Source of the DNA: Bacteroidota bacterium
GTDB taxonomy: Bacteria; Bacteroidota; Bacteroidia; Sphingobacteriales; Sphingobacteriaceae
Assembly: GCA_018828585.1 (NCBI GenBank)
Contig: JAHJVW010000093.1
Location: 1 to 62,023 of the forward strand
Length of the DNA stretch: 62,023 nt
Reading direction: 5' to 3'
The position numbers and the translations under genes were made by a program. This document shows, one piece after another, positions 1 through 62,023 of this stretch. Each line of letters starts with the position of its first letter. The stretch's first letter is position 1. The notes below the pieces were generated by a model, which was given only the letters and a program-made list of their open reading frames with translations, ran no database searches and had not been told where the DNA came from.

Positions 1-62
1 AACAACTCGTCAAAACTCAACGATTGAAATGTGGATTTGTCTATTACTATTGAGATGTCCAT
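1..62 (-). CDS. Partial hypothetical protein, cut by window edge
   Basis: An ATG at 62 on the minus strand opens a frame that runs off the left edge without a stop. The visible residues begin MDISIVIDKSTFQSLSFDEL. I recall similar IDKSTFQSL-type starts among Bacteroidetes hypothetical proteins, but I cannot name a function. The gene lies just beyond the 3' end of the intact tyrosine recombinase and reads in the same direction, which is where a first cassette would sit if that recombinase serves an array. Only about 20 codons are visible, so this could be a chance frame. Confidence 0.4.
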   Translation of the reverse strand, partial: MDISIVIDKSTFQSLSFDEL

Positions 63-88
63 TGTTCGTTTCTTGCAGTCAGTTTTAA

Positions 89-119
89 GTTAGCACGGTC
101 GTCACGGGTTGCAGGTAAC
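89..119 (-). other. Candidate recombination site beside the recombinase
   Basis: A short segment between the recombinase stop and the partial edge gene is bounded by GTTAGCA on one side and TGCAGGTAAC on the other, giving a weak inverted repeat with GTTA/TAAC ends. These ends resemble those of the palindromes separating modules at 55.5-61.6 kb. It could be an attI-like or attC-like site. It is short and poorly symmetric, so the call rests mainly on position. Confidence 0.25.
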
Positions 120-141
120 TTGTATATATGTCTGACTTTTT

Positions 142-177
142 CAGACCTATACAGCTAAAATTGGAGGTATAGGTCTG
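142..177. terminator. Hairpin downstream of recombinase
   Basis: CAGACCTATAC at 142-152 pairs perfectly with GTATAGGTCTG at 167-177 around a 14-base loop. A GTCTGA just to the left can pair alternatively with the TCAGAC at the left of this stem. There is no good T tract on the minus strand, so termination of the recombinase transcript is only one reading. A structured recombination site is another. Confidence 0.3.
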
Positions 178-211
178 ATAGCAATCATTTTTATTTTTAA
201 ATATATTATTT

Positions 212-1254
212 TTATAAATCATCAAAAGGGCTTTTTACATTTCTAATACTTTTGGTACTTACATGAGTATAGATCTCCGTCGTTTTACTGCTTTTATGTC
301 CTAAAATTTCCTGAATATAACGTAAATCTGTTCCGCCCTCTAATAAATGGGTCGCATAACTGTGACGTAACCAATGTAAGGTTACCGGTTTTTTAATTTT
401 TGCCTTTTCTAGAGCTTGTTTGAGAATGCTTTGAAGACTTTTTTCAGAATATTTTTCGCCAGCTTCCTGTCCTTCGAAAAGCCAATTGATGGGTTTATAC
501 ATCTTATAATAATCTCTAAGCATCGTTAAAATTAAATCAGATAGCGGTGCGATCCGATCTTTCTTACCTTTTGCCTGTCTAATAATTACCAATTTCCTTT
601 CCGAGTCAATGTCATTAGCTTTTAAATTCAATAGCTCACTTCTTCTTAAACCACAGCTATAAATTAAACTCAGCATGGTTTTATGTTTGATATTGCTATG
701 CGAGTTCAGTATTTTCTTAATCTCCTCTTTGCTCAAAACATTAGGCAATAACTTTTCTCTTTTAGGGCGATAGATTTTCTCGACGCTAATGGCAGTTTGT
801 TTTATGATGCTGAAATATAATTTGATGGCGTTGATAATTTGATTTTGATAGGAGGAAGAAAGCTTGTTCTTAATGATATGCTCCTGATAATAGTTCACCA
901 CATCCTCGTTATCAATACTACTAATTTCCTTCTCCTGATAAAACAGCAGGAAAGATTTTAGTGCTTCGCTATAAGTTTTAATGGTGTTTTCGCTGTACCT
1001 TTTGGTATAAAGATACCTCCTAAACTTTTCTACATGCTCAATTTTATCCATCCCTAAATGCACCACAGGCAAACTGTACAATTTAAATCTTAAGCGGTTT
1101 TCTGGTGTATTAGGTAAATGCCAAGCATTCAAGGTCTTACTCCAACGGGCATCACCCAATGCTTTTATACGAGCAATCAGCTCGAGTTTGTTTTCAAACC
1201 AAACCGCAATGCGTTTTTCTTTTCGATGTTCTACAAGTTCAACTTTGTAATTCA
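212..1254 (-). CDS. Tyrosine recombinase / integrase (integron-integrase-like architecture)
   Basis: This is a 347-residue site-specific tyrosine recombinase that would cut and rejoin DNA through a 3'-phosphotyrosine. The catalytic set is complete: Arg in CGLRRSELL, Lys in AKGKKDR, HWLRHSYATH, LGHKSS and the nucleophile Tyr329 in TEIYTH. Before the SAM-like core-binding domain (about 75-160) is an N-terminal module of about 55 residues with RIAVWFENK and LGDARWS motifs. The stub at 55151 shares this module. I start at the ATG at 1254 (MNYKV); the frame extends four codons upstream to an ATT, but the homologue also starts at the equivalent Met. The gene reads leftward, so its 3' end faces the partial gene at the window edge. 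No accessory genes such as an excisionase are visible. XerC/D-like, transposon-type and integron-type roles cannot be separated by eye. Confidence 0.9.
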
Positions 1255-55150: not shown

Positions 55151-55297
55151 ATGGAATATAAAGCGGCATTTATTCACCATCGTAATCAAGAACGGATAGC
55201 CGTATGGTTTGACAATCAGCCGGATCTTATTGCTCGTTTAAAAAAACTGGGTGATGCCCGTTGGAGCGCCACTAAAAAAGTATGGCAATTCCATTAA
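55151..55297 (+). pseudogene. Truncated tyrosine recombinase, N-terminal module only
   Basis: The frame begins MEYKAAFIHHRNQERIAVW and shares RIAVWF-N, LIAR-K-LGDARWS and the following W with the intact recombinase at 212-1254. It ends after 48 codons, where homology to an IS1182-like element begins within the final codons (about 55295). The SAM-like and catalytic domains are absent. The module array begins just beyond the IS remnant, so the stub occupies the same position relative to an array as the intact gene does at the left edge. Confidence 0.88.
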
Positions 55298-55470
55298 GGT
55301 ACTTGCCTGTTTTTTAGCCGTTGTTTGTGGCTATTTTAAGCGTTTATCCGACATCGCTTTTTTAGTCTTAGAAAATAGCAAACCCGAAAATGATTGTTTT
55401 TTTCTGCCCCAAAATCGATTATATTTATCCATATAAAGTTACGTTTGAAAACTAATGATGGTTTTTAGAA
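55295..55470 (+). mobile_element. IS1182-like element, 3' remnant (copy A)
   Basis: About 175 bases match the 3' end of copy B (59122-59296) with scattered changes, including CTGTTTTTTAGCCGTTGT, AAAATAGCAAACCCGAAAAT-like and the terminal GATGGTTTTTAGA. It encodes the transposase tail CFLAVVCGYFKRL...LPQNRLYLSI. The left end and most of the gene are missing; the remnant joins directly to the recombinase stub. Its right end is followed by AAACTGCCGTTA. Confidence 0.85.
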
Positions 55471-55504
55471 AAACTGCCGTTAGCGGTAATGCTGTAACGG
55501 CTTC
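55471..55504 (+). other. attC-like half site (right arm) after IS remnant A
   Basis: AAACTGCCGTTAGCGGTAAT with following GCTGTAACGGC adjoins the IS end. The GTTA and CCGTTAGCGG core resemble the right arms of the palindromes further on (GTTATAGCCA, GTTACCAGC). The left arm seems lost with the deletion that removed the recombinase and the IS left end. Confidence 0.4.
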
Positions 55505-55533
55505 CTTCCAATAATTTGACACCAACAGAAGAA

Positions 55534-55941
55534 CTATTTGACTTTTGTCATTAACGACTGACTTAACTCCTTAATGACAGCAGTTTTATCTTTTTTGATT
55601 TTTTTGCCAAGCTCTTTTCGTGGACAGTTTGCATTATATTTTGCGCCCCAATCCATTATCTCAATGACAATGGGTAATAAATCGACACCTTTTTGTGTAA
55701 GACTATAAATGAACTTTGACTTATTTAGAGGAGACACCTCTTTGACGACAATGTTTTCCGCTTCAAGAACACCTAATCTATTAACCAAAATGTTTGAAGC
55801 AATTTTTTCTTCAGAAGCTAAAAACTCACTAAACGACACTTTACCCCTCAACATTACGTCCCTAATTATTAAAAGCGACCATTTGTCCCCGAAAATATCA
55901 AGGGAACAACTTATTGGGCAATCTGACCTTTTTTTATTCAT
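55534..55941 (-). CDS. HxlR family transcriptional regulator
   Basis: A 135-residue winged-helix regulator. I start at the ATG at 55941 (MNKKRSDCPISCSLDIFGDK), which gives the normal HxlR length; the frame is open further upstream through the operator. The conserved DCPIS...FGDKWSLLIIRDVMLRGKVSFSEF block with the sensor Cys is present, then SNILVNRLGVLEA. HxlR proteins often respond to electrophiles or redox change through that Cys. It diverges from the SnoaL-like gene across an 86-base gap with a strong inverted repeat. Confidence 0.9.
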   Translation of the reverse strand: MNKKRSDCPISCSLDIFGDKWSLLIIRDVMLRGKVSFSEFLASEEKIASNILVNRLGVLEAENIVVKEVSPLNKSKFIYSLTQKGVDLLPIVIEIMDWGAKYNANCPRKELGKKIKKDKTAVIKELSQSLMTKVK

Positions 55942-55949
55942 AAAATAAA

Positions 55950-56002
55950 GTTGTTGCAGTTTGCAATATCTTTTTATATTTGTACTTGCAATTTGCAACA
56001 AC
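55950..56002. promoter_or_regulatory. Putative HxlR operator with internal -7 box
   Basis: GTTGTTGCAGTTTGCAA at 55950-55966 and TTGCAATTTGCAACAAC at 55986-56002 form a 17-base inverted repeat with one mismatch. A TATATTTG (-7 type, 55975-55982) lies in the 19-base spacer. Regulator binding would block the promoter of the SnoaL-like gene, and possibly its own. Confidence 0.7.
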
Positions 56003-56027
56003 AAATTTAATACAAAAATCTAATAAA

Positions 56028-56408
56028 ATGGATAATCAAACAATAACAAGACAACTTCTTGAAATTTATTACAAAGGCTTTGCAGAAAAGGCTAATTGGG
56101 AAAGTGTAATTGGTGACGATTTTGAATATGTCGGTGGCGACATGAACAACATTAAACCTGTAGTTGGAAAACAAGCCTACATTGAAATCATAAAGCGATT
56201 TTCACAACGTTTTGAAGTGATGAAAGTAAAACAAATGATAGTGGAAGGCGACAAAGCTAGTGTTATTGGAAATTATGATTTTGTATTTCCAAACGGATTT
56301 AAAATTAACGGCAATGTTTCTGAAAACTGGACAGTAAAAAATGGTAAACTACATTCACTTACACTTTACTTTGACACGTTGACTTTTATGACAAGCTTGA
56401 AACCATAG
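56028..56408 (+). CDS. SnoaL-like / NTF2-fold protein
   Basis: A 126-residue cone-shaped NTF2-like protein. Start chosen at the ATG at 56028 (MDNQTITRQLLEIYYKGF); earlier codons overlap the operator. Features are WESVIGDDFEYVGGDMNN, VGKQAYIEIIKRFSQRF and VIGNYDFVFPNGFKINGNVSENW, typical of polyketide-cyclase/steroid-isomerase-like folds with no fixed function. It is under probable HxlR control and is followed by a TfoX-like gene after seven bases. Confidence 0.82.
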   Translation: MDNQTITRQLLEIYYKGFAEKANWESVIGDDFEYVGGDMNNIKPVVGKQAYIEIIKRFSQRFEVMKVKQMIVEGDKASVIGNYDFVFPNGFKINGNVSENWTVKNGKLHSLTLYFDTLTFMTSLKP

Positions 56409-56415
56409 TTTATCA

Positions 56416-56757
56416 ATGGCATACAACATTGAACTTGCAGACAGAATAAGAGAATTTCTTCTAACGAAACCAAACTTAAAAATAGAAGAAAAGAAAATGT
56501 TTCGTGGACTGACCTTTATGATTAATGGTAAAATGTGCGTAAATATAAGTAACGACAATCTGATGTGTCGCTTTGACCCAGACTTTCAAGACAAAGTATC
56601 AGAAAGAAAGGGTTTTCAACCAATGATTATGAAAGGGAGAGAATATAAAGGCTATTGTTATGTGAGCAAAGACGGATTTAAAACAAAGAAAGATTTTGAA
56701 TATTGGTTAACTTTGTGTTTGAACTTTAACGACAAAGCTAAGGGAAAGAAAAAATAA
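56416..56757 (+). CDS. TfoX/Sxy N-terminal domain protein
   Basis: A 113-residue protein with the TfoX N-terminal pattern: KMFRGLTFMINGKMCVNISNDNLMCRF, GFQPMIMKGREYKGYCYVS and KKDFEYWLTLCLNF. The C-terminal DNA-binding part of Sxy is absent, as in most family members outside gamma-proteobacteria, so a role in competence should not be assumed. It is the last gene of the module; an attC-like palindrome begins six bases after its stop. Confidence 0.85.
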   Translation: MAYNIELADRIREFLLTKPNLKIEEKKMFRGLTFMINGKMCVNISNDNLMCRFDPDFQDKVSERKGFQPMIMKGREYKGYCYVSKDGFKTKKDFEYWLTLCLNFNDKAKGKKK

Positions 56758-56763
56758 AGCACT

Positions 56764-56893
56764 ACCGCTAACAGCAGCAAAAAAAAATGGAAGGGGAAAT
56801 GCGAATATAAACAGTTGTGCAACTAATAAACATTGTGTGTATAGACAGTTTGGTGTTCCAAATCAGCCACTTCTTTTAGCTGTAAACCGTTAC
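56764..56893 (+). other. attC-like palindrome 2
   Basis: The left arm CACTACCGCTAACAGC begins just after the TfoX-like stop; ACCGCTAACAGC pairs (9 of 12) with GCTGTAAACCGT at 56879-56890, followed by TAC. The arms enclose about 100 bases. Symmetry is weaker than at the next two sites. Confidence 0.45.
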
Positions 56894-56972
56894 AAAAAAT
56901 GCTAAGAACCTAGCAACCTTCCCTGACCAATTCATCATAATGACTTTTAGACAAATAAAATTTAAATTTTAG

Positions 56973-56992
56973 TAACTTATAAGTTACCTTTG
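56973..56992 (+). promoter_or_regulatory. Toxin-antitoxin promoter and operator, module 1
   Basis: TAACTTATAAGTTA (56973-56986) is a perfect 14-base palindrome that overlaps the -7 box TACCTTTG (56985-56992). The start codon follows six bases later. Placement over the promoter is what is expected for autorepression by the HigA antitoxin. The TAnCTTTGTTTTxTG layout recurs in modules 2 and 3. Confidence 0.65.
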
Positions 56993-56997
56993 TTTTA

Positions 56998-57349
56998 ATG
57001 AAAGTAAGAGAAGTTATAGCTTTTAAAGATTATTTTGAGAAATTTCTAACCGACCAACCGAAAAAGGTTCAGGACAAAATTTTTAAGATAATTGAAGCTA
57101 TTGAAACTTTGGAAAGGATTCCATCGAATTATCTGAAATTCTTAGTTGGTACCAACGGTCTTTCTTTATGAAGCAAGAATTCAACTAGGCTCAAATATTT
57201 GGTGGGTTTTCTGTTTTTTCGACAATGACAGATTGGTTATTTTGCTGAATGGTTTTCAGAAGAAAACTCAAAAGACACCAAAGAATGAAATCGAAAAAGC
57301 TCTTCGTTTAATGACCGAATATATAAAAGAGAAAGAAAATGGAAACTAA
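56998..57349 (+). pseudogene. higB: HigB-like toxin, frameshifted
   Basis: The 5' part reads MKVREVIAFKDYFEKFLTDQ and continues to LVGTNGL, then meets a stop; the remainder (YEARIQLGSNIWWVFCFFDN ... NGFQKKTQKTP) is in another frame. The break is at CTTTCTTT (57160-57167), a four-base tandem duplication; removing one CTTT restores a normal 116-residue RelE/HigB (Gp49-like) toxin. The intact antitoxin gene overlaps the 3' end. The toxin is therefore probably dead while its antitoxin survives. Confidence 0.88.
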
Positions 57350-57629
57350 AAGTTGGAAAGAAATAAAAGATGCAGTTTACGGACTTAAGGGCACTGAGAG
57401 ACGAGATGAATTTTACAGAGACTTCGAGAGCTTCAAAATCGGGGTTCTGCTCCGTAAAGCAAGAGAAGACAAACATCTGACTCAATCGGAATTAGCTGAC
57501 CTAGTCGACAGAAAAAGAGAATACATTTCGAGAATTGAGAATAACGGAAGTAATCTGACCTTAAAAACTCTATTTGACATTGTAGAAAAGGGTTTAGGGG
57601 GAAAGGTGAAAATATCAATCGAACTATAA
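57339..57629 (+). CDS. higA: HigA-like XRE antitoxin, module 1
   Basis: A 96-residue protein with an N-terminal toxin-contacting part (RDEFYRDFESFKIGVLLRKA) and an HTH_XRE domain (KHLTQSELADLVDRKREYISRIENNG), ending GLGGKVKISIEL. It would neutralise the cognate toxin and repress the operon. Its start overlaps the toxin gene by 11 bases. With the toxin frameshifted, it is now an orphan antitoxin. Confidence 0.9.
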   Translation: METKSWKEIKDAVYGLKGTERRDEFYRDFESFKIGVLLRKAREDKHLTQSELADLVDRKREYISRIENNGSNLTLKTLFDIVEKGLGGKVKISIEL

Positions 57630-57636
57630 AAAGCAC

Positions 57637-57774
57637 TGGCTATAACATCAGGTTTGCATTATGCCCGGGCAACGTGGTTCTTGTTCTGTTCTGCTTTTTA
57701 TTTACATTAGTACTTGGGCGACAAAGAAGTGCTGTTTATTCGGGCACAACGCAAACTTGTAAATGTTATAGCCA
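57637..57774 (+). other. attC-like palindrome 3 (best preserved)
   Basis: The left arm TGGCTATAACATCAGGTTTG and following CATTATGCCCG (from 57637) pairs with the right arm CGGGCACAACGCAAACTTGT and following AAATGTTATAGCCA (57741-57774), with small bulges. The loop of about 70 bases holds no gene. The site starts eight bases after the HigA stop (CACTGG boundary). The ends TATAAC/GTTATA keep the AAC/GTT core of integron attC sites but not the full RYYYAAC consensus. Confidence 0.6.
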
Positions 57775-57828
57775 ATACTACCCGACAGAATCGACTAGAA
57801 AACATTTTGAATTTGTTGTCTGATTAGT

Positions 57829-57836
57829 TAACTTTG
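57829..57836 (+). promoter_or_regulatory. -7 box of toxin-antitoxin module 2
   Basis: TAACTTTG matches TAnnTTTG and is followed by TTTTGTG, where GTG is the toxin start. The transcript would have almost no leader, as in modules 1 and 3. Confidence 0.6.
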
Positions 57837-57840
57837 TTTT

Positions 57841-58179
57841 GTGAATAATGAAAGACAAGTAATTGCTTACAAAAACTATTTCCTCGACTTTTATGAAAGT
57901 CAAAACGACAAGGTACAGGCAAAAATCGAATGGACTTTAAATTTGATTAAAGTTACTCCGAAAGTTCCTGAAAAGTTTTTCAAGCATATCCAAGGAACAA
58001 AAGGACTTTATGAAATCCGTGTTGAAGCGGGAAGCAATATTTACCGAATATTTTCTTTTTTTGACAAAGGAAATTTAGTCGTTTTAGGAAACGGTTTTCA
58101 AAAGAAAAGTCAAAAAACACCAAAACAAGAAATCGAAAAGGCACTTAAAATAATGGAGGAATATCAAAATGACAACTAA
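57841..58179 (+). CDS. higB: HigB-like RelE/ParE-superfamily toxin, module 2
   Basis: A 112-residue toxin of the phage-derived Gp49/HigB group: VIAYKNYFLDFYESQNDKVQ, FFKHIQGTKGLYEIRVEAGS and NIYRIFSFFDKGNLVVLGNG followed by FQKKSQKTPKQEIEKAL. Members cut mRNA on the ribosome. The start is GTG at 57841, a few bases after the -7 box. The antitoxin start overlaps its end by 11 bases, so the order is toxin first, as in higBA. This is the only complete toxin of the three modules. Confidence 0.92.
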   Translation: MNNERQVIAYKNYFLDFYESQNDKVQAKIEWTLNLIKVTPKVPEKFFKHIQGTKGLYEIRVEAGSNIYRIFSFFDKGNLVVLGNGFQKKSQKTPKQEIEKALKIMEEYQNDN

Positions 58180-58471
58180 AAAGAACATCACAACATTAGA
58201 CGAAATCCTTGACAAAAAATACGGAACAAAAGGGAATCCCAAAAGAGAAGAATGGGAGCAACAATTTGAAGCTTTCAGACTTGGTGCATTACTTGAAGAA
58301 GCCCGAACAAAATTAGGCATGACCCAAGAACAACTCGCTGAAAAGTGCGGAACTAACAAATCTTATATTTCAAGAATTGAAAATGACGCATCCGACATTA
58401 GACTTTCTACCTTAATGAAAATCATTCAGAAAGGTTTAGGCGGACACTTAAAATTGACTCTTCAAGTTTAA
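58169..58471 (+). CDS. higA: HigA-like XRE antitoxin, module 2
   Basis: A 100-residue antitoxin with the N-terminal REEWEQQFEAFRLGALLEEA segment and an HTH_XRE domain (LGMTQEQLAEKCGTNKSYISRIEN), ending GLGGHLKLTLQV. It is a paralogue of the module 1 antitoxin with similar layout but clearly diverged, so the modules are not a recent duplication. An attC-like site begins 13 bases after the stop. Confidence 0.92.
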   Translation: MTTKKNITTLDEILDKKYGTKGNPKREEWEQQFEAFRLGALLEEARTKLGMTQEQLAEKCGTNKSYISRIENDASDIRLSTLMKIIQKGLGGHLKLTLQV

Positions 58472-58484
58472 GAAAAAACAATAC

Positions 58485-58610
58485 TGGCTATAACCACAAA
58501 TTTGTATTATAATGGCTGAACTGCTTTATGTTATTTCATCGCAATTAACTAAATTTATACGGGCAGACAAGTTTTTGCTTACTATGCCATTACAACACAA
58601 ATTTGCAAAC
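58485..58610 (+). other. attC-like palindrome 4, split by an IS
   Basis: The left arm TGGCTATAACCACAAATTTG continues into TATTATAATGGC; GCCATTACAACACAAATTTG at 58586-58605 pairs with it. The outer right end (GTTACCAGC) is found at 59305-59313, beyond the IS. Without the IS and one AAAC copy the right arm would read on as CAAATTTGCAAACTGACGTT and then ACCAGC. Confidence 0.55.
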
Positions 58611-58691
58611 CGTCTAAAAACCTCCGTTCAGTTTTCCACAAAAAAGAATAAGTTTTGGCAGTTTTGAGTGGTTATTTTTGTATTTTCAGGT

Positions 58692-58917
58692 ATGAAATTC
58701 ATCACCGGAAAAGATAGGAGCCAGACCGAATTTTTCTGTTTGGAACAGGCCATAGCACAGGACAACGAGGTCCGCCTGATTGATCTCTTTGTAAATGCCG
58801 TGAATTTGTCTGATCATGGTTTCGATATGAGCTACATTGATAATGGCAGACCTGCCTACCATCCCTCCGACCTGCTCAAACTGTTTATTTACGGCTACCT
58901 GAACCGTATCCGATCTT
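58692..58917 (+). pseudogene. IS1182-family transposase, N-terminal fragment
   Basis: The frame starts MKFITGKDRSQTEFFCLEQA and runs to YHPSDLLKLFIYGYLNRIRS, the diagnostic IS1182 N-terminal block. It breaks off where the family continues with RKLE/RRLE, at the edge of the palindromic element at 58918. The frame runs 26 codons into that element before stopping. Confidence 0.9.
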
Positions 58918-59079
58918 CCCCAACTGGTTTAAGTGTTCCGAAGGGTCACTTAAATCTAAATATAAAAACCAAGGACTGTGTCCGGCATTCAAAAAGATAA
59001 TCGGCTTATACCGGACGGAGTCCTCGGCTTTTAAAAGCATTTAAGTGATCCTGAAAAAGGAACACTTAAACGAGTTGGG
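58918..59079. mobile_element. Palindromic mobile element (MITE-like), complete copy
   Basis: Left end CCAACTGGTTTAAGTGTTCC and right end GGAACACTTAAACGAGTTGG are inverted repeats; further in, GGTCACTTAAAT pairs with ATTTAAGTGATC, and AGGACTGTGTCCGG with CCGGACGGAGTCCT. Nearly the whole element folds into one long imperfect hairpin. It encodes nothing. It lies inside the IS1182 transposase. The first 79 bases recur identically at the window end. Confidence 0.8.
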
Positions 59080-59262
59080 ATATTCAATATCATCGGCCAT
59101 GAAATGCTTAAAATGTACCTCAAGGTGCTTGTCTGTTTTTTAGCCGTTGTGAGGGGTTATTTTAAGCGTTTATACGACATCGTTTTTTCAGTCTTAAAAA
59201 ATAGCAAACCCGAAAATGATTGGTTTTTTCTGCCCCAAAATCGATTATATTTATCCATATAA
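59080..59262 (+). pseudogene. IS1182-family transposase, C-terminal fragment
   Basis: After the palindromic element the frame resumes with FNIIGHEMLKMYLKVLVCFL and ends NRLYLSI. This is the normal transposase tail (YN-x-RRV-x-NI-type region onwards). About 350 residues of the catalytic middle are missing, so the IS cannot move itself. Confidence 0.82.
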
Positions 59263-59337
59263 AGTTATGTTTGAAAACTAATGATGGTTTTTAGACAAAC
59301 TGACGTTACCAGCAATTAAAAAAACAAACCATAATTA

Positions 59338-59901
59338 ATGAAAGAGTTACTAGAATATCTAAATAGTATTCAACGTTTGACTGATAAATCCCAAAAAGCA
59401 ATTTCATTAATTTGTACAGAATTAGCTGTAAAAAAAAACTCAAACCTTCATCCAATTGGACATACTTGTAGGAATATTTATTTTATTAAAAATGGATTGT
59501 TATGCATCTATTATTTTAAAGAGGACATTGAAATAATAGAAAGTTTTGAATTTGAAAATTCAATTGTTGCTAGAGCAGATAGTTTATTCAAAACAGAACC
59601 TTCACGTAAAGGAATTAAAGCTATTGAGAATTCAGAGTTAATTGCCATTAATTCCTCCAAACTATTTGATTTATATGATCAACATCCTGATATTGATAGA
59701 TTGTTTAGGAAGATATATGAAAATGCTTATGTAGAATTAGTTAACAGAGTTGAAAGTATTCAATTTCATACAGCAGAAGAGCGTTATCATAACTTATTAA
59801 ATCAATCCAGACAAACTATCCTAAGAGTACCATTAAAGTTTATTGCTTCTTATTTAGGAATCACACAAGTGAGTCTGAGTAGAATCAGAGCAAAAAAGTA
59901 A
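59338..59901 (+). CDS. Crp/Fnr family transcriptional regulator
   Basis: A 187-residue regulator with a cyclic-nucleotide-binding-like beta barrel (IGHTCRNIYFIKNGLLCIYYF, ARADSLFKTEPSRKGIKAIENSELIAI) and a short C-terminal winged helix (VPLKFIASYLGITQVSLSRIR). It lacks obvious cysteines for an Fe-S cluster, and the barrel does not show the full cAMP-binding signature, so the ligand is unknown. The MFS-rhodanese gene starts 64 bases downstream in the same direction; it is the likely target. Confidence 0.9.
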   Translation: MKELLEYLNSIQRLTDKSQKAISLICTELAVKKNSNLHPIGHTCRNIYFIKNGLLCIYYFKEDIEIIESFEFENSIVARADSLFKTEPSRKGIKAIENSELIAINSSKLFDLYDQHPDIDRLFRKIYENAYVELVNRVESIQFHTAEERYHNLLNQSRQTILRVPLKFIASYLGITQVSLSRIRAKK

Positions 59902-59965
59902 TTATTTAACATTTGTAAAGTATTTTCTTTTTATTCTTCCTGACTTTTGTAATAAATCAAAGAAT

Positions 59966-61465
59966 ATGGATGATATAAAGTTAGGATTGAAAGAAAATTG
60001 GAAACAATTTACATTACTGGTTATTGTAAATGCTTTTGTTGGTGGTATGGTTGGTTTAGAACGTTCCATTCTTCCTGAAATAGCCGAGAAAGAATTTGGG
60101 TTAGTTGTAAAAACAGCAATATTATCATTCATTATTGTTTTTGGCGTTACCAAAGCACTTGCCAATTATTTTGCAGGTGCATTAGCAAATAAATATGGTA
60201 GAAAGAAACTATTAATCCTAGGTTGGTTAATTGGAACACCAATTCCTTTTATATTAATGTTTGCCCCAAACTGGAACTGGATAATAATTGCCAATATTCT
60301 ATTAGGAATTAATCAAGGTTTGGCTTGGAGCAGTACAGTTGTGATGAAAATTGATTTAGTTGGAGATAAGCAACGTGGTTTTGCAATGGGACTAAATGAA
60401 TTTGCAGGTTACTTGTCAGTCGCAATTGTAGCCTTTTTAACAGGTTGGATTGCCAGTGTATATGGTTTAAGACCTTACCCTTTCTATATTGGAATTATTC
60501 TAGTCATATTAGGTTTAATTTTCAGCATCTTTTTTATTAAAGATACTAAACATCACGTAGCTAAAGAATCAAAATCGAGTACCGTTCCTTTGTTAAACAA
60601 TATTTTTCTGGATACAACTTGGAAAAACAAAAACTTAGGCTCTGTTTCACAAGCAGGACTAATTAACAACCTAAATGATGGAATGGTTTGGGGTATTTTT
60701 CCATTATTATTAGCAAGTAAAAACTTCACCATAGAGCAAATAGGAATAATTACAGCAATATATCCTGCCGTTTGGGGAATAGGGCAATTATTTACTGGAA
60801 AAATGGCTGATAAACACCCTAAAAAAGAAATGTTGTTTTGGGGGATGCTCCTACAAGCTATTACGCTTTTATTATTTGTTTTTGCTAATAATATGTATCA
60901 GTATATCATTCTATCTTCAATTTTAGGTTGGGGAACAGCAATGGTTTACCCTACTTTTTTAGCGTCTATTGCTGAAAACACAAATCCAATTGATAGAGCA
61001 AAAAGTATTGGAATTTTTAGATTATGGAGAGATTTAGGTTATGCAATTGGAGCAATATTAACAGGTTTAATAGCAGATGCCTATAACATAAATAGTTCAA
61101 TTGTGTTTATTGGAGTACTTACCTTAATATCTGCAATTATCATCAAAGCAAGAATGAAAACTAACACAAGTTGTATTTCAAAGGAAGATATTCAAAAAAA
61201 GAAAAATTATACAATCATTGATGTAAGAACTAAAGAAGAACGAGAAACTGGGTATATCGTTAATTCTATCCATATTCCACTCAATGAACTTGAAAGGAGA
61301 ATTAAAGAACTTCCCACAGACAAACTTTATGTAACTGCTTGCGGAAAAGGGGGTGGAAGGTCAATTAAAGCATCTGAAATATTGCAACTAAACAAGTATA
61401 GCGCATTTTGGCTTTGTGGTGGAACACTAGGTTGGACAGAAGAGAAAGCTGGTAACAATGTATAA
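59966..61465 (+). CDS. MFS transporter fused to a C-terminal rhodanese domain
   Basis: A 499-residue protein. Residues 1-390 form a 12-helix MFS transporter with GALANKYGRKKLLILGW (the loop 2-3 signature) and GKMADKHPKKEML (loop 8-9). Residues 405-499 are a rhodanese domain: TIIDVRTKEERETGYIVNSI, PLNELERRI and the active-site loop VTACGKGGGRS with Cys459, then LCGGTLGW. The fusion suggests export or import of a sulfur-containing or thiol-reactive compound whose sulfur is handled at the membrane. A very strong terminator overlaps its stop. The Crp-type regulator lies upstream. Confidence 0.9.
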   Translation: MDDIKLGLKENWKQFTLLVIVNAFVGGMVGLERSILPEIAEKEFGLVVKTAILSFIIVFGVTKALANYFAGALANKYGRKKLLILGWLIGTPIPFILMFAPNWNWIIIANILLGINQGLAWSSTVVMKIDLVGDKQRGFAMGLNEFAGYLSVAIVAFLTGWIASVYGLRPYPFYIGIILVILGLIFSIFFIKDTKHHVAKESKSSTVPLLNNIFLDTTWKNKNLGSVSQAGLINNLNDGMVWGIFPLLLASKNFTIEQIGIITAIYPAVWGIGQLFTGKMADKHPKKEMLFWGMLLQAITLLLFVFANNMYQYIILSSILGWGTAMVYPTFLASIAENTNPIDRAKSIGIFRLWRDLGYAIGAILTGLIADAYNINSSIVFIGVLTLISAIIIKARMKTNTSCISKEDIQKKKNYTIIDVRTKEERETGYIVNSIHIPLNELERRIKELPTDKLYVTACGKGGGRSIKASEILQLNKYSAFWLCGGTLGWTEEKAGNNV

Positions 61466-61509
61466 AAGCAATCGCGGTTCAGGTGCAAACTTGAACCGCG
61501 ATTGCTTTT
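61464..61509 (+). terminator. Long perfect hairpin after the MFS-rhodanese gene
   Basis: AAAAGCAATCGCGGTTCA at 61464-61481 pairs without mismatch with TGAACCGCGATTGCTTTT at 61492-61509 around a ten-base loop. The stem ends in a T run on both strands. It overlaps the MFS stop codon by two bases. Termination is the likely role. Confidence 0.9.
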
Positions 61510-61573
61510 AATTAAGTATATTGCTATCAGAAAAGTAAGTGCATTTAAATCCGCCACTGCTCTTATACTAAAC

Positions 61574-61604
61574 GTTATAGGGCGTTTTAGCCGAACGCCA
61601 TTAC
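61574..61604 (+). other. attC-like palindrome 5 (short form)
   Basis: GTTATAGGGCGTT pairs with AACGCCATTAC around TTAGCCG, and a CACTGCTCTTATAC boundary-like motif precedes (61556-61569). It is only 31 bases long without a large loop, and shares the GTTATAGG start with the right arm of site 3. It separates the MFS-rhodanese module from the third toxin. Confidence 0.45.
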
Positions 61605-61646
61605 AAAAAACTCAAATCGAATTGTTTCACTTTAGGTAAACTTTCA

Positions 61647-61654
61647 TATCTTTG
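61647..61654 (+). promoter_or_regulatory. -7 box of toxin-antitoxin module 3
   Basis: TATCTTTG followed by TTTTGTG repeats the promoter layout of module 2, including the GTG at the expected start position. Confidence 0.6.
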
Positions 61655-61658
61655 TTTT

Positions 61659-61944
61659 GTGGAATAAAATCAGAAACATAGGAAGATTATCTTTTTCAAG
61701 AATTACTTTCAGGACTTTTTCGACAAGCAATCCAAAAAGGTAAAAGCCAAAATTGTTTGGACTTTCGAATTGATTGAAGATTTGCAAAGAGTTCCCGAAA
61801 CTTATCTTAAACATCTCGAAAATACAGAAGGACTTTATGAAATTAGAGTTCAAACTGGTAGCGACATTTTTAGGATTTTTTGTTTTTTCGACAAAGGTAA
61901 ACTAATTGTTCTTGCTCATGGTTTTCAAAAGAAGACACAAAAGA
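61659..61944 (+). pseudogene. higB: HigB-like toxin, module 3, interrupted
   Basis: From 61668 the frame reads NQKHRKIIFFKNYFQDFFDK, continues through YLKHLENTEGLYEIRVQTGS and ends at FQKKTQKTP, matching the module 2 toxin. At the GTG in the expected start position (61659) the frame meets TAA two codons later, so the start is damaged or lies elsewhere. At 61945 the palindromic element interrupts the gene, removing the last 18 or so codons. No antitoxin is visible before the window ends. Confidence 0.82.
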
Positions 61945-62023
61945 CCCCAACTGGTTTAAGTGTTCCGAAGGGTCACTTAAATCTAAATATAAAAACCAAG
62001 GACTGTGTCCGGCATTCAAAAAG
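61945..62023. mobile_element. Palindromic mobile element, second copy, cut by window end
   Basis: All 79 bases are identical to 58918-58996, the left half of the complete copy. The window stops at the point corresponding to the hairpin apex. The junction with the toxin (AAGA|CCCC) differs from that with the transposase (TCTT|CCCC), so these are independent insertions. Confidence 0.85.

Follow-up and report, generated by a model that had tools for sequence, protein, structure and literature searches.

The window analysed here, a 62,023-nt stretch of DNA forming one whole contig of a 3.58-Mb Bacteroidota draft genome, very likely (probability about 0.87) holds one intact and one broken copy of an integron-like gene-capture system that is widespread in Bacteroidota. 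The best reading, held with the same confidence, is a chromosomal class of integrons whose tyrosine recombinase lacks the I2 insertion and mostly reads towards its own array, although recombination itself is inferred from sequence comparison. The evidence rests on the architecture of the two loci, the properties of the enzyme, the recombination sites beside its homologues and cassettes shared between genomes.

Architecture of the two loci

The intact recombinase gene occupies positions 212–1255 on the minus strand (stop codon TAA at 214–212, first ATG at 1255–1253; an ORF with a TTG start extends to 1267) and encodes 351 residues arranged as a HARP-like N-terminal module (about residues 5–68), a SAM-like domain and the catalytic domain of an I2-less integron-type tyrosine recombinase. 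The gene reads towards and off the left contig edge, and since the window is a whole contig no sequence left of position 1 can be read. The conserved site ATATATACAAG|TTA lies 93 nt beyond the stop codon, and an unrelated gene starts there. The attI-like site (119–178, minus strand) consists of hairpin arms at 178–167 and 152–141 followed by GTCAGACATATATACAAG, whose end is at G119; the predicted crossover is G119|T118. Adjacent to it is a partial first cassette (1–118, minus strand) composed of a leader and the start of an ORF (ATG at 62), which leaves the contig edge after 20 codons. A second intact relative of the recombinase (44% identity) is found on contig C64 of the same genome (L059:1-2101); an ssb gene follows it immediately downstream, and past ssb comes a single weaker attC match (36.4 bits).

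At the right end of the window, an ssb gene (PF00436; 54211–54546, minus strand) diverges from a recombinase stub (55151–55297, plus strand), an arrangement also found upstream of the homologues at L050–L053, L055 and L056. The stub is 48 codons long, ends in VWQFH* and contains only the N-terminal module, which resembles that of the intact enzyme. It stops where a 195-nt repeat starts, whose second copy (91%) lies at 59122–59316. The IS remnant terminating the stub (55296–55468, right border set by eye) corresponds to the right end of the element at 58614–59294, a degenerate IS with a DUF772 transposase domain (borders set by eye) that carries a MITE-like insert at 58918–59080.

Behind the stub and the IS remnant follows an array, read on the plus strand, of four attC-like sites and four to five cassettes. 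Cassette A (55480–56889) encodes an HxlR regulator in reverse orientation, a weakly SnoaL-like protein and a TfoX_N-like protein, and its attC (56762–56899) scores 63.4 bits. Cassette B (56890–57765) carries an HTH antitoxin, the preceding toxin frame appearing broken (judged by eye; no 80-aa ORF), with an attC at 57636–57775 (106.3 bits) that belongs to the training set of the covariance model R1 described below. Cassette C (57766–58613) encodes a Gp49-like toxin and an HTH antitoxin, and its attC (58484–58617, 76.9 bits) lost the R′ end to the IS at 58614. Cassette D (59306–61574) contains genes for a weakly cNMP-binding (Crp/Fnr-like) protein and an MFS-rhodanese protein, with an attC at 61446–61584 (62.8 bits), and the partial cassette E (61575–62023) a toxin-like ORF (by eye) that is interrupted at the contig end (61945) by another copy of the MITE-like element. 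Model R1 recovers the four sites, all on the plus strand, with E-values between 1e-25 and 3e-14; a fifth, weak match (E 0.047) lies on the minus strand inside the last site. Across the whole genome R1 yields 16 matches at E ≤ 0.1 on several contigs. An Rfam search of the array returned four matches at E ≤ 1, all to microRNA families and under their gathering scores.

Two side observations concern the mobile elements. In both copies of the DUF772-transposase IS a G|TT core follows 10 nt downstream of the end, which possibly hints at insertion targeted to attC or attI sites, a suggestion resting on two cases with borders drawn by eye. The MITE-like element, with 21-bp inverted ends, occurs inside the IS and again at 61945–62023 inside the toxin-like gene at the contig end.

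A sequence-only reading of the window had proposed that the intact recombinase (placed at 212–1254, one base short) and a homologous, IS-broken stub at 55151–55297 are two int-array loci of one system, both with the 3′ end facing the array. The recombinase, the stub facing its array, the shared orientation and the common system all held, both loci fitting one int-attI-attC system. The gene supposed to read in the same direction at the window edge also held, as the ORF from 62(−) that is cut by the contig end. As to the GTTA/TAAC-bounded segment proposed in between (119–89, minus strand), its GTTA end corresponds to the attI-like core, and its TAAC end found no support in any analysis run. The proposed action of the intact enzyme in trans on the decayed array is plausible, yet no more than an inferred possibility.

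Properties of the recombinase

Among 26 enzymes R208, K233, H298, R301 and H324 are invariant and Y333 is at least 90% conserved, and the criterion for a tyrosine recombinase, the R-K-H-R-H-Y set, is met. The criterion for IntI, the I2 or IntI-specific additional domain, is failed. In the alignment to VchIntIA (pdb-code: 2a3v) the window recombinase has 19 residues where VchIntIA has 61, and the spacing from R to H amounts to 89–95 residues (94 of 108 enzymes measured; the other 14 are fragments or did not yield to the motif pattern) versus 126–131 in 14 IntI; it is 94–96 in two enzymes of the window genome labelled Xer-like by similarity. Because the I2 insertion is missing, these enzymes are not IntI by the usual molecular definition, and the sequence-only reading's identification of an integron integrase has to be corrected in this respect.

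Profile searches place the window recombinase (P0001) at 210.5 bits for TIGR02249 (E 3.7e-62), under the curated cut-off of 265 (best E among 51 members, 1.3e-71), and at 232.8 bits, over the cut-off of 220, for NF040815 (XerA / integron integrase). The best PDB match by both sequence and fold is of the XerA/XerC/XerD type (pdb-code: 4a8e). The C-terminal VKSPFD motif resembles that of IntI, which reads VKSPVD in most of L146–L156. In a “quick” tree, for which 104 enzymes were thinned to 96, the eight IntI group together with support 100* and all 96 I2-less enzymes fall outside their clade. The root is unsafe because the long IntI and Xer branches meet, as the program itself warns, and the tree is compatible both with IntI being sister to the I2-less enzymes and with IntI being nested among them. 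The recombinases of L077–L081, which belong to the same system, are 526–541 residues long and carry extra sequence between the N-terminal module and the SAM-like domain.

attC sites and layout of the loci

Beside homologues of the recombinase we found imperfect palindromes of 123–127 nt beginning with TAAC and ending with GTTA. A palindrome scan, in which a first scorer returned noise and was replaced by a second, detected 14 in 19 loci, none upstream of the recombinase, whereas shuffled controls gave one. It makes no distinction between strands, and the MITE of the window, which it detected as well, was excluded. The 15 seed sites, one of them from the window, measure 123–127 nt and contain a conserved crossover box; the consensus of the palindromes and the window site contains 26 pairs, 19 of them with two-sided (compensatory) changes. 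The integron criterion of a structured attC with covarying arms and an AAC/GTT core is met. R1 is the covariance model built from the seed sites; its training sites thus adjoin enzymes of this kind, and six of the test loci are among their sources. On 14 canonical-IntI loci with flanks of about 1.5 kb it gave no match, either because the flanks are too short or because the attC differ.

R1 sites are present in 82 of 106 recombinase loci from Bacteroidota (GTDB sense), including 40 phylum loci hand-picked for breadth from the phylum search results. An inverted layout, with all sites downstream and on the recombinase strand, is realized in 61 of the 82, and a canonical layout, with all sites upstream and on the opposite strand, in the remaining 21; a mixed layout was found in none of the 82, and no used site lies elsewhere. 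The recombinase family is tied to such arrays. Downstream of the recombinase, 15 of the 24 loci without an R1 site have less than 1.6 kb and the other nine more than 8 kb. The matches used were 68 of 80 in the first locus set, 82 of 83 in the second and 96 of 96 in the third; among the 12 dropped from the 80, seven were weak other-strand mirror images of used sites and five were weak, downstream and on the recombinase strand. In a second fetch of 80 loci, partly from the same genomes, 83 of 83 matches lay on the recombinase strand and 81 downstream. The two others both belong to a Galbibacter locus (L225:1285-7648), where they precede the recombinase on its own strand; no further departure from the two layouts was observed. 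The canonical layout occurs in 14 enzymes of 272–305 residues without the N-terminal module and in one seven-locus clade (L091–L101) inside the group with the module.

attI sites and crossover

Inverted enzymes are followed, after the stop codon, by a TATA....AG|TTA site, the simple pattern of which occurs in 45 of 85 loci compared with 69 of 1700 control windows. In 26 locus pairs median identity is 98% left of the core and 35% right of it, and one pair has the same first cassette in both loci. The pairs derive from four groups, 15 of them from six near-identical loci, and the core patterns for canonical-layout loci were written after viewing the sequences. One group consists of two complete Chryseobacterium plasmids: L360 has four attC matches downstream, and L359 contains the enzyme and attI with no R1 site in the 17 kb examined. 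The integron criterion of an attI adjoining int with insertion at G|TT is met, and sequence comparison shows attI and attC, just as it shows the cassette boundaries, the orientation, the exchange of cassettes among genomes and families and the lack of I2.

A long hairpin directly precedes the attI core in L165, L174, L162 and L048, its arms being species-specific yet complementary. The consensus hairpin comprises only five pairs, all with two-sided changes. Single-sequence folding gave a median z of −2.9, with 18 of 26 below −2, versus −0.8, with 21 of 80 below −2, in control windows that follow other stop codons. On these values the hairpin may be either a terminator or a recognition element.

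Exchange of cassettes between genomes

Near-identical cassettes (96.8–100%) bounded at G|TT, either at attI or between attC sites, occur in different genomes, and three of the four pairs span families. A 1021-nt cassette at attI in L096 is 100% identical to one between attC sites in L175 (families f1 and f8); L091 matches L166, there at attI, at 99.2% (f1 and f25), L094 matches L188 at 96.8% with attI in both (f1 and f33), and the fourth pair, L106 (attI) and L108, links two species of one genus at 99.8%. Of 69 HSP ends, 11 are no more than 5 nt away from a predicted attC core, compared with a mean of 0.25 and a maximum of 5 for random cores (500 draws). The criterion of tandem cassettes exchanged as units is met. 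No canonical IntI over the cut-off was found in the genomes of the four pairs, part of which were scored for at most five candidates per genome. The shared cassettes are the strongest evidence that, where the host has an I2-less enzyme, recombination at these sites moves units, the recombination itself being inferred. As a separate observation, a cassette of about 1333 nt aligns with two neighbouring stretches in L109 and with a single one in L108 (99–99.7% identity).

N-terminal module and SSB

The N-terminal module comprises about 65 residues with two conserved tryptophans. In a profile search its top match, first of 177,635, was the HARP domain of SMARCAL1 (pdb-code: 4o66; E 2.2e-4). Pfam HARP (PF07443) matches six of 51 members at E ≤ 0.1 (best 7.2e-5), and DUF5710 weakly matches 11 of 51; the gathering score of 25 for PF07443 is unmet (best of ten trimmed modules, 24.9 bits), and none was shown over the cut-off for DUF5710 either. 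Pfam HARP gave no match on the module of the window enzyme itself. With a model of the module, Foldseek ranked 4o66 second to third without significance (E 0.65), and VIA-align found nothing significant, HARP being missing from its list. The module is accordingly termed HARP-like by sequence only. HARP domains bind branched or single-strand-containing DNA. The module occurs in most inverted enzymes and in the canonical-layout clade of seven loci, and is absent from the 14 short canonical-layout, array-bearing enzymes and from the inverted L176; its earlier proposal as a signature holds in part, the module being common and not strict.

Of 180 loci (some places fetched twice), 18 have ssb no more than 1.2 kb from the recombinase, ten of them on the same strand and at most 65 nt away, compared with three loci that have one elsewhere in 2.5 Mb (binomial about 1e-11, loci not independent). 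At this frequency SSB was rejected as a general partner.

Distribution

In a family set of 151 genomes the recombinase (E ≤ 1e-50) was found in 56, attC (E ≤ 1e-6) in 93 and canonical IntI in one. All 56 enzyme genomes carry attC, versus 37 of the 95 others (Fisher 1e-16, relatedness uncorrected). Those 37 limit our main reading: their arrays may be orphans, their enzymes may be too distant or have been overlooked, or a different enzyme may be at work. As attC-like sites occur in 93 and canonical IntI in one of the 151 genomes, the missing integrase of orphan arrays may be an I2-less enzyme. In a phylum set of 395 genomes at least 115 carry the enzyme, 168 attC (E ≤ 1e-8) and 105 canonical IntI over the cut-off; at most five or eight candidates per genome were scored, so that counts are lower bounds and absences provisional. 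Just one of these 105 genomes (G186) belongs to the class of the window organism, in which attC accompanies the enzyme in 49 of 53 genomes.

Beyond Bacteroidota the palindrome scan, run without a shuffled control, indicated that the homologues of Fusibacter sp. 3D3 and of a Nitrospirae MAG (L273/L275) have three attC-like sites and one, respectively, on their downstream side; it gave ambiguous sites in Halonatronum (one upstream, two downstream), and no attC-like sites in four other loci including an Ignavibacterium MAG. An extension of the enzyme class to Firmicutes and Nitrospirota is possible. Plasmid and viral relatives of the recombinase exist. On a conjugative Klebsiella IncC plasmid, a recombinase piece (L361:5142-5753) 53% identical to residues 103–351 of the window enzyme adjoins blaVEB-3, near sul1 and qacEdelta1.

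Alternative explanations

Two alternatives are very unlikely. In the first, the arrays were built by canonical IntI provided in trans by plasmids or earlier hosts, and an unrelated enzyme, Xer-like or element-borne, lies next to them. In its favour are the attC sites of the 37 genomes without the I2-less enzyme and the action of IntI1 on foreign (archaeal) attC (PMC9668308). However, canonical IntI is nearly absent from the family set and was not found in the genomes of the shared-cassette pairs (part of them scored for at most five candidates each), the attI cores adjoin the I2-less gene and mark where sequences diverge, and all 82 site-bearing loci fit one of two layouts. The second alternative holds the enzyme to be an IntI with secondary loss of I2, or one that recombines attC as double-stranded DNA. 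It is supported by the IntI-like VKSPFD motif and the TIGR02249 match at 210 of 265 bits. Secondary loss is opposed by the tree, with its unsafe root, which keeps IntI in a clade of their own, and double-stranded use by the covarying attC arms, which double-stranded DNA recognition alone would, by inference, not require.

A phage- or transposon-type integrase, with palindromes that are terminators or REP-like elements, is all but excluded: despite the plasmid and viral relatives and the pre-attI hairpin that could be a terminator, the seed sites share their length and crossover box, such sites bound exchanged units, and none of the best 80 viral relatives from a capped search matches the whole N-terminal module (two start inside it, at residues 41 and 49) or exceeds 47% identity apart from one 124-residue fragment at 58%. 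The cassette junctions already contradict this explanation.

Comparison with known systems

The I2-less integron reading shares with canonical integrons (TIGR02249, VchIntIA) an attI beside int, attC with paired R boxes, the G|TT crossover, cassettes including toxin-antitoxin pairs and cassette exchange, but the enzymes lack I2 and stay under the TIGR02249 cut-off, most have the HARP-like module and some an ssb partner. The inverted integrons of Treponema (PMC3607928) likewise have int reading towards attI and the array; the enzymes there are called IntI, whereas here inversion characterizes most I2-less lineages with the HARP-like module. The VCR sites of the Vibrio superintegron resemble these attC in their length of about 124 nt and their long variable central part, and there are toxin-antitoxin cassettes too, but their sequence is different, and the sites of the window genome are spread over several contigs. 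XerA/XerC/XerD (NF040815, 4a8e) provide the best PDB match and a similar R-H spacing; the window-type enzymes differ in being tied to attC arrays. The HARP domain of SMARCAL1 (PF07443, 4o66) has profile similarity to the module, but the window-type enzymes have no SNF2 motor and the fold comparison is not significant.

Previous reports on Bacteroidetes listed only In0 and then one complete integron in Salinibacter (PMC9024848), and Bacteroidota are counted among integron-bearing phyla (PMC8618304). IntegronFinder requires an IntI-specific domain profile for IntI calls (PMC9668308), and an earlier survey chose IntI by the additional domain (PMC2426708). No description of an I2-less integron integrase, or of such a class, was found in the open-licence literature searched, which included no preprints; absence there is no proof.

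Proposed mechanism and implications

Consistent with these data we propose a scenario in which circular cassettes arrive and the recombinase would link their attC with the attI just past the 3′ end of its gene, cutting the top strand at G|TT and hence the bottom strand at AA|C; the crossover in integrons is reported at AAC on the bottom strand (PMC7790495, PMC4792948). The enzyme would also excise and shuffle cassettes, and would do so without the I2 helix, which canonical IntI uses on extrahelical attC bases. The HARP-like module in most members and the neighbouring SSB in some lineages may aid action on single-stranded DNA. Catalysis by the window enzyme, folded single-stranded attC as its substrate and the roles of module and SSB are all inferred.

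The published account counts against an I2-less integron, as the acquisition of I2 is taken as the innovation towards single-strand recombination and the basis of attC processing (PMC7790495, PMC4792948). In our reading the system very likely works like an integron, with recombination inferred, and has a fair chance of being a separate mechanistic class. With a slight preference only, we favour a bolder reading, namely a distinct integron class that recombines folded single-stranded attC without I2, via the HARP-like module (in most members) and a dedicated SSB (in some lineages), throughout Bacteroidota and perhaps in Firmicutes and Nitrospirota.

In the current view I2 both defines integron integrases and explains how a Xer-like enzyme can perform single-strand recombination (PMC7790495, PMC4792948). 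A large natural group of I2-less enzymes on attI-attC arrays makes this account testable. If the bolder reading is true, the family would either be the I2-less intermediate that has so far been missing or have invented single-strand recombination of cassettes independently.
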